From: Faecalicatena orotica
GTDB lineage: Bacteria; Bacillota; Clostridia; Lachnospirales; Lachnospiraceae
Assembly: GCF_003149245.1 (NCBI RefSeq)
Contig: NZ_QGDL01000020.1
Coordinates: forward strand, 1 to 64,000
Direction: 5' to 3'
Length of the DNA stretch: 64,000 nt
The notes under the pieces were generated by a model. It saw only the letters and a list, made by a program, of their open reading frames with translations, searched no databases and was not told the DNA's origin. A program made the position numbers and the translations under genes. Each line of letters opens with the position of its first letter. Positions within the stretch are counted from its first letter, which is position 1. Positions 46,371 through 47,628 of this stretch are shown one piece after another.

Positions 46371-46540
46371 TGCGAACCTGAAGTGAACATAAAAATACTG
46401 GGGGATTCGCACCAGAAAAAATGCACAAATTGAGTGTGTTTTTAAATGAAAGAAAGAAAAAAGAGCACAATGTAGACAAACTATATTGATATTTAGTTAA
46501 AAATGTCTAAATATCTGAGGTGGAAATTGTCTATTTTGCA
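46371..46540 (+). promoter_or_regulatory. CRISPR leader 1
   Basis: About 170 bases closely similar to the three other leaders. It contains two conserved dyads: GTGCGAA/TTCGCAC, starting at the old cas2 stop, and GATATTTAG/CTAAATATC (46488-46515) ending 25 bases before the first repeat. It should carry the promoter for array 1 and possibly for the cas operon behind it. Confidence 0.8.
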
Positions 46541-46907
46541 GTCGTTCCCCTCGCGGGGACGTGGATTGAAATCTTATGATGGATTTCAGGCCACACTCCA
46601 TCAAGGCGTCGTTCCCCTCGCGGGGACGTGGATTGAAATCCTTATGGAAGTACAACTCCGTATTCTTGCGGGGTCGTTCCCCTCGCGGGGACGTGGATTG
46701 AAATATTCGGAAAAACTCTGCATCCGCTCCTTTAGTTGGCTTGTCGTTCCCCTCGCGGGGACGTGGATTGAAATTTGATTGCAACCGAGAATTTTTGCCG
46801 CCTCGCCGAGTCGTTCCCCTCGCGGGGACGTGGATTGAAATTATGCGTCTGTGGAATGTATTGATAGGAATCTAAGTCGTTCCCCTCGTGGGGACATGAA
46901 TTGAAAT
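46541..46907 (+). CRISPR. CRISPR array 1 (type I-C, 6 repeats, 5 spacers)
   Basis: The 32-base repeat begins GTCGTTCCCCTCGCGGGGAC and ends GTGGATTGAAAT. Repeats start at 46541, 46608, 46673, 46743, 46810 and 46876; spacers are 33-38 bases. The last repeat is degenerate (CTCGTGGGGACATGAATTG), which places the leader on the left. The array ends 58 bases before the cas5c start codon. The repeat differs from that of arrays 3 and 4 at two positions, in the loop and in one stem pair. Confidence 0.97.
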
Positions 46908-46965
46908 GAATAAAGGGGATGAGTCATCAAATGAAAAAGTTAAATTACAGGAAGGAGGAAAATGT

Positions 46966-47628
46966 ATGGGGATTGGTGTGAAAGTTAAAGTGTGGGGGGA
47001 TTTTGCCCTATTCTCTCGCCCAGAGATGAAAGTGGAAAGATGTACTTACGATGTCATGACACCTTCGTCAGCTCGGGGAATTTTGGAAGCCATATACTGG
47101 CACCCGGGATTAAGGTGGATCATCGACAGGATTTATGTGAACAAGCCAATTAAGTTTACAAGTGTGAGGCGAAATGAAGTAAAAAGTAAAGTCTCCTCGA
47201 ACAATGCTCTGTCGGTATATAATGGAGGGGAAAAACCTTTATTTATGAGCAGCAAAGAAGAGATTGTGCAGAGGGCATCATTGCTTCTTCGTGATGTGGA
47301 ATATGTCATTGAGGCTCACTTTGAAATGACTGACAAAGCGAATGAAGGTGACAATCCGGGTAAGTTTAAGGACATTATGATGCGGCGCCTGAGAAAAGGA
47401 GAATGTTATCATATGCCGTATTTTGGCTGCAGGGAATTTCCGGCTAATTTTTGTCTTTGTGAGGAGGAAGAGATTATAACAGCCTATGAAGCAGTTGAGG
47501 AAAAGGATTTGGGATTTATGCTGTATGATATGGATTATTCAGACCCTGAAAATATCCAGCCAATGTTTTTTAGGGCAGTGATGCGAAGAGGTGTACTGGA
47601 TCTGAGAGACTGTGAGGTGGTTCGATGA
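46966..47628 (+). CDS. cas5c: Cas5c (Cas5d), type I-C crRNA-processing endonuclease
   Basis: In type I-C this protein replaces Cas6: it cuts pre-crRNA in the repeat and caps the 5' handle in Cascade. The 220-residue product begins [20 protein letters not shown] and has the family segment [20 protein letters not shown]. The start is chosen because AAGGAGG is 8 bases before this ATG; an earlier in-frame ATG overlaps the last CRISPR repeat and has no ribosome site. Its last codons overlap the cas8c start by 4 bases (ATGA). No promoter of its own is apparent, so it probably depends on transcription through array 1. Confidence 0.95.

Follow-up and report, generated by a model that had tools for sequence, protein, structure and literature searches.

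Type I-C CRISPR-Cas loci have a standard order, cas3-cas5c-cas8c-cas7-cas4-cas1-cas2, with the array behind cas2. In the crRNA of this type, a 33-nt spacer is flanked by handles of 11 nt (5') and 21 nt (3') (PMC5965380), and the cut is therefore expected after repeat position 21. How the amount of Cas protein is matched to the supply of crRNA is an open question, and CreR is the answer so far for some subtypes. According to excerpts of PMC13131331 and PMC12737573, CreR (Liu et al. 2023) is a CRISPR-derived RNA that acts at the cas promoter region, where partial complementarity to the promoter represses transcription and ties the Cas level to crRNA supply; the excerpt of PMC13131331 describes it for types I-B, I-E and V-A. 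CreTA and CrePA combine a crRNA-like antitoxin with an RNA or a protein toxin, and the excerpt of PMC12737573 poses as a question whether CrePA-like systems exist with other types and targets. Here we describe a type I-C locus of Faecalicatena orotica in which an array precedes cas5c. The DNA analysed, called the window below, is a stretch of 64,000 nt (positions 1 to 64,000 of contig NZ_QGDL01000020.1, assembly GCF_003149245.1).

A type I-C locus with an array between cas3 and cas5c

The window contains a complete type I-C locus with every gene on the + strand (Table 1). Cas5c, Cas8c, Cas7c and Cas1c scored above the curated cut-offs (TIGR01876, TIGR01863, TIGR02589 and TIGR03640), cas5c is followed by cas8c, cas7, cas4, cas1 and cas2 in this order, and no cas6 was found among the seven cas ORFs of the locus. 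The 32-nt repeat has a hairpin and the 3' ATTGAAAT of type I-C. Cas5c is full length, and its nearest solved chains are the I-C Cas5 proteins 8dex_A and 7kha_A. The gene for a WYL/WCX-domain regulator stops 24 nt before the start of cas3 and is probably co-transcribed with it. A match to this regulator was found in L046 alone among the loci of 80 relatives, several of whose contigs offer little sequence ahead of cas3. Between arrays 3 and 4 we also noted a ParE-like toxin gene (PF05016), preceded by a small ORF that may encode its antitoxin and accompanied by a third small ORF (53119-53875). A second, divergent I-C locus lies elsewhere in the source genome (L139, G000:C2:324015-324605).

Table 1. 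Features of the type I-C locus in the window
Feature	Position	Strand	Remark
WYL/WCX-domain regulator	43048..43881	+	PF25583, PF13280; start assumed at 43048
cas3 (HD + helicase)	43906..46044	+	
Promoter-like site TTAATA-17-TATTAT with TG	46075..46103	+	score not above chance
cas2 3'-end relic, opens duplicated module	46227..46363	+	matches 52074-52250
Leader 1	46364..46540	+	
CRISPR array 1, 6 repeats + 5 spacers	46541..46907	+	
Array 1 terminal degenerate repeat (C14T, G21A, G24A)	46876..46907	+	
cas5c leader, 58 nt, Shine-Dalgarno at 46949-46958	46908..46965	+	
cas5c, I-C pre-crRNA endonuclease	46966..47628	+	TIGR01876, E 4.9e-53
cas8c and cas7	47625..50255	+	
cas4, cas1 and cas2	50255..52248	+	
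Leader 2, joined to true cas2, ends in one degenerate repeat	52249..52443	+	
cas2-tail relic + leader 3 + array 3 (4 repeats)	52444..52968	+	
Repeat relic + cas2-tail relic + leader 4 + array 4 (6 repeats)	53969..54651	+	

An array between cas3 and cas5c, with its last repeat 58 bases before cas5c, had been proposed in the initial annotation, and both statements were confirmed: six repeats at 46541-46907 run in the same direction as cas5c, and 58 nt separate the end of the array at 46907 from the cas5c ATG at 46966. The repeats start at 46541, 46608, 46673, 46743, 46810 and 46876; the first five are identical, the sixth is degenerate, and the spacers measure 33-38 nt. Compared with arrays 3 and 4, the repeats of array 1 have two differing positions, both in the hairpin. 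Array 1 is no chance repeat but a genuine CRISPR array with repeats of the local family. When one 26-mer from each of the five spacers was compared with IMG/VR, there were 0 exact matches. The spacer region had no match to phage records, and Rfam gave no match at the gathering threshold. In array 4, one spacer is present twice (54389-54422 and 54520-54553), as if by internal duplication of a repeat and spacer.

By its sequence, array 1 is a copy of a module that consists of the 3' end of cas2, then a leader, then an array, because the order of cas2 tail and leader recurs at further sites, namely at 52074 (the true cas2), at 52444 and at about 54000. Besides leader 1, the source genome holds four further leader copies. 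Leaders 3 and 4 share 85% identity with leader 1, the leader on contig C14 shares 83% and leader 2, over a longer span, 72%. The leader on C14 is part of an orphan leader-array (L138, G000:C14:12834-13597), which has eight repeats and belongs to the same family. No match to a cas gene was found in 10 kb of DNA around it, and the module therefore spreads within the genome.

The cas3-cas5c gap in related loci

For comparison we assembled 182 loci around cas5c, which are part of all matches: 80 loci (the best 80 of 245 relatives), the window and 101 further stretches, including the second I-C locus of the source genome. The sample is nearly all Clostridia; L102, L106 and L107 among the 80 are Negativicutes by title. 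In 173 of the 182, cas3 was in reach, and the other 9 were left out; 164 of the 173 have a distinct cas5c. An array in the gap between cas3 and cas5c was found in the window only, that is, in 1/164 distinct loci (173 in total). The two genes were less than 60 nt apart in 97/173 loci, 60-599 nt apart in 45 and at least 600 nt apart in 31, with gap lengths based on start codons chosen by script (for the window an upstream ATG was taken, which gives 861 instead of 921). The order described as usual for type I-C in the initial annotation, with cas3 directly before cas5c, is thus correct only in part. As a second case of an array in the gap we considered L054 and rejected it, since its repeats are purine-rich repeats of low complexity and the ORF next to them resembles a transposase by eye. 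At L054:7841-10001, both this ORF and the purine-rich repeats lie between cas3 and cas5c, and from such insertions it follows that the gap takes insertions repeatedly.

Arrays were also found in front of cas3. Among the 151 loci with enough upstream DNA, seven had an array that ends less than 600 bp before cas3 (L035, L036, L067, L083, L141, L150 and L152), and in all seven, judged by handles or repeat letters, the array is oriented toward cas3. In L036 (Blautia sp. MSJ-19, 2832-2879), the last repeat is degenerate, and 13 nt with a Shine-Dalgarno separate it from the cas3 ATG, which makes this a tighter case of an array as leader than the window. In L035, the array ends roughly 85-100 nt before cas3, depending on the start codon. 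In L067, L083 and L070, the last with its array further off, a TATAAT-like site was seen by eye between array and cas3. Conservation of the L036 junction, checked in the genus of G028, to which L036 may belong, was rejected: 6/20 genomes match the Cas3 query. Among these six, DNA upstream of cas3 was visible in L241, L242 and L243, and L240 and L244 offered coding DNA only. L241 is the L141 locus again, and in L242 and L243 no handle was found within 1500 nt upstream of cas3.

In many relatives the cas3-cas5c gap holds a solitary repeat-like element on the minus strand, which combines a short stem with the handle TGGATTGAAAT, and the 17 nt after the handle match a TTC-preceded site in the same gap. 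Examples are L036:5013-6204, L044:8802-10000 and L055:8759-10000. When targets were chosen blind to the PAM, a handle was found in 29/76 loci, and the best target had TTC in 25 of these 29. A fixed rule was then applied, by which at least 9/10 scored positions in the first 11 and at least 13/15 in the first 17 had to match, positions 6 and 12 being unscored; the count takes each distinct cas5c once, excludes the window and covers gaps of 60 to 2500 nt. By this rule, a handle with a TTC target was present in 39/69 distinct loci (gap 60-2500 nt) and a handle as such in 51/69. The PAMs of all targets that passed were TTC (40), TAC (2), GTA (1) and AGA (1), and shuffled pseudo-spacers gave a TTC target in 0/1380 runs. 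With no PAM in the rule, AAT (265) and CAT (73) matches outnumbered TTC (33); we take the AAT, CAT, TAT and GAT matches to be array repeats.

Among the 39 pairs, position 6 was mismatched in 24 and position 12 in 31, and each other position from 1 to 11 in 0-3. The low figures are partly a product of the rule; the high ones show that positions 6 and 12 are free although the positions beside them match. Free positions at 6 and 12 are expected of type I crRNA pairing. The mismatch pattern thus fits pairing of this kind, as expected, and not plain duplication. These findings suggest an apparent regulation of the CreR/CreA type in type I-C relatives. A simple CreR story is weakened because 18/69 loci have no handle and the rule yields no target in 12 of the 51 loci with one.

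In 17 of the 80 relatives' loci, a DUF3990 (PF13151) match stands before cas5c together with a match to a 146-aa partner (for example L036:5292-6180), and 12 of the 17 carry the crRNA-like element by the strict rule. The partner, searched as its L036 copy, has no Pfam match. We infer that DUF3990 is a toxin; together with the partner and the element it would form a candidate CrePA-like module with a putative new toxin. Among the literature matches listed, to which the primary CreR paper does not belong, there was no report of CreR in type I-C or of DUF3990 with CRISPR. The apparent I-C CreR/CreA element, sometimes with DUF3990, is a more general result than the arrangement in the window.

In a tree of Cas5c, Cas8c and Cas7, read without branch supports, the window forms the sister branch of a clade with 27 loci. 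By the strict rule 15/27 of these carry the element, and 18/27 by a looser label; tree labels were assigned by hand, L046 and L051 do not pass the strict rule, and L058 has its element upstream of cas3 instead of in the gap. Just outside the clade stand four more carriers (L040, L060, L062 and L065). The ancestor of the window thus probably had a crRNA-like element that was later lost, and array 1 now occupies its place. No gene beyond the array module is present in the gap of the window, and no PF13151 (DUF3990) match was found in the genome. A self-targeting or CreR-like use of array 1 was considered and rejected, as no target in 42.5-56 kb rose above background.

Proposed transcription and processing of array 1

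We scanned 45900-47300 for promoters of the consensus type alone. No + strand promoter-like site was found in this range after 46103, and the sole + strand candidate was the site at 46075-46103, upstream of array 1. The three candidates found in total were no more than shuffled sequences gave (3.8, sd 1.8). By eye, the site is similar to extended -10 sites that precede cas5c in L033 and L037; as a conserved ancestral promoter it was rejected on its chance-level score. A matrix of general promoter weights, again for consensus-type sites, gave 46860-46953 a score of 3.3, which lies below the shuffled median and was reached by 73% of shuffles (p=0.73). The earlier statement that no promoter is obvious between array 1 and cas5c was thus borne out by both scans. 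In the matching place, p<=0.05 was obtained for 15/30 relatives with gaps of 100-450 nt; the other 15 failed like the window, which resembles this half, and its failure is not unusual. In leaders 1-4 no consensus sigma-A promoter exceeded the 95% level of shuffles. No terminator-like site was found in 45900-47300, which is weak evidence from a crude finder. The same finder was positive for 7/39 arrays on the cas2 side, and as it detects few terminators after ordinary arrays, its silence at the end of array 1 is uninformative; Rho-dependent termination or termination at the repeat hairpins may occur there.

In many relatives the place of array 1 is taken by the Cascade promoter, often together with an antisense crRNA-like repressor. 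Array 1 probably lies within the leader of the Cascade mRNA, because it is co-oriented with cas5c, no promoter-like site intervenes and the sole candidate lies upstream of the array. We lean towards the reading that array 1 and the Cascade genes are on one transcript which is trimmed by Cas5c, and that the supply of crRNA and Cascade is coupled by a change of promoter, not by a feedback switch. Transcription of Cascade would cross array 1 and would begin in leader 1 or at the weak site at 46075-46103, or else continue from cas3 by read-through. Cas5c would cut this RNA in the repeats and release crRNAs and a translatable cas5c-cas8c-cas7 mRNA. With a cut in repeat 6 the mRNA would start at 46897, 69 nt before the AUG; with the last cut in repeat 5 it would start at 46831, 135 nt before the AUG, and either trimmed product would retain the ribosome site. 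The main consequence would be parallel changes in the supply of crRNA and of Cascade. The operons with an array in front (7/151 loci, including L036 and L035) support a shared transcript; against it stand the TATAAT-like sites after the array in L067, L083 and L070, by which such arrays may be transcribed apart.

These three sites, seen by eye, would equally suit two independent units, in which cas5c transcription starts in the 58 nt or in spacer 5 from a non-consensus or alternative-sigma promoter, and the position of the array is an accident of duplication that has no effect on Cascade. Real starts are indeed missed by consensus scans, as the leaders too lack a consensus promoter and 15/30 relatives fail. 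The segment before cas5c scored below the shuffled median, however, whereas 15/30 relatives were positive, and we regard independent units as possible and less than likely. A feedback of Cas5c cutting on Cascade expression, raised as a possibility in the initial annotation along with the leader reading, seems rather improbable to us. Here Cas5c would act on its own mRNA by cutting the final repeat in the leader, or Cascade would assemble on the resulting handle, and translation or stability would be lowered when crRNA is scarce. Array 1 does adjoin cas5c, and an mRNA cut in repeat 6 would begin with the 11-nt handle UGAAUUGAAAU. A guide stretch of 33 nt would then reach to 46940 and stop 8 nt before the Shine-Dalgarno (46949), and L036 has just 13 nt from the last repeat to the cas3 ATG. 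However, two substitutions in repeat 6 make its cutting doubtful, although its folding is retained (-11.4 kcal/mol): G21A affects the base immediately 5' of the expected cut, and G24A falls within the handle. The cut would also spare the strong Shine-Dalgarno AGGAAGGAGG and the AUG. Folding masks no ribosome site, the leader being no more structured than shuffles (z +0.82 and +0.17 in its cut and uncut forms), and with a single locus in the sample there is no sign of conservation. The leader reading is thus supported from orientation, the missing intervening promoter-like site and the upstream candidate, and the feedback suggested with it is not.

A CreR-type modulator, with an array 1 spacer or a pseudo-spacer after repeat 6 guiding Cascade to a cas promoter, would agree with the presence of such an element in the same gap of 39/69 distinct relatives (gap 60-2500 nt). 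In 42.5-56 kb of the window, however, the best pseudo-spacer behind a handle and with a TTC PAM reached 11/15, compared with 13-15 in the accepted pairs of relatives and a threshold of 13, and under the PAM-free rule the three best matches of the window were repeat-to-repeat; we consider such a modulator highly improbable. A bolder proposal, to which we give little credence, is that the array replaced both the crRNA-like autorepressor and the promoter and took over their role in cis. Cascade mRNA would then arise only as the 3' part of the pre-crRNA, and its yield would be set by Cas5c cutting and by loading of Cascade on its own 5' handle, as a post-transcriptional counterpart of CreR.

Comparison with known systems

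In summary, the I-C system of the window is ordinary, and a copied leader-array module lies in its regulatory gap. It shares all genes, their order and the repeat type with the standard type I-C locus, and differs from it by the leader-array module between cas3 and cas5c and by three more leaders after cas2. With the array-first I-C loci L036 and L035 it has in common a co-oriented array directly before a cas gene and no clear promoter between; there the array precedes cas3, whereas in the window it splits cas3 from Cascade. In the type III-A locus of Staphylococcus epidermidis, the array likewise lies upstream of the cas genes and is co-oriented with them. That locus differs from the window in its type, in processing by Cas6 and in an array that heads the whole locus. 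In 42.5-56 kb, the window has no match of the kind by which CreR recognizes a promoter, and the CreTA/CrePA-like pairing of a crRNA-like element with a DUF3990 gene, seen in the gap of some relatives, is absent from it. Collectively, the locus offers a natural case of a guide array in what is probably the transcript of its own effector, beside relatives with a crRNA-like repressor in the same gap, and a comparison of both arrangements would test whether it is repression of the promoter or processing of RNA that couples crRNA and Cas supply, or whether there is no coupling.
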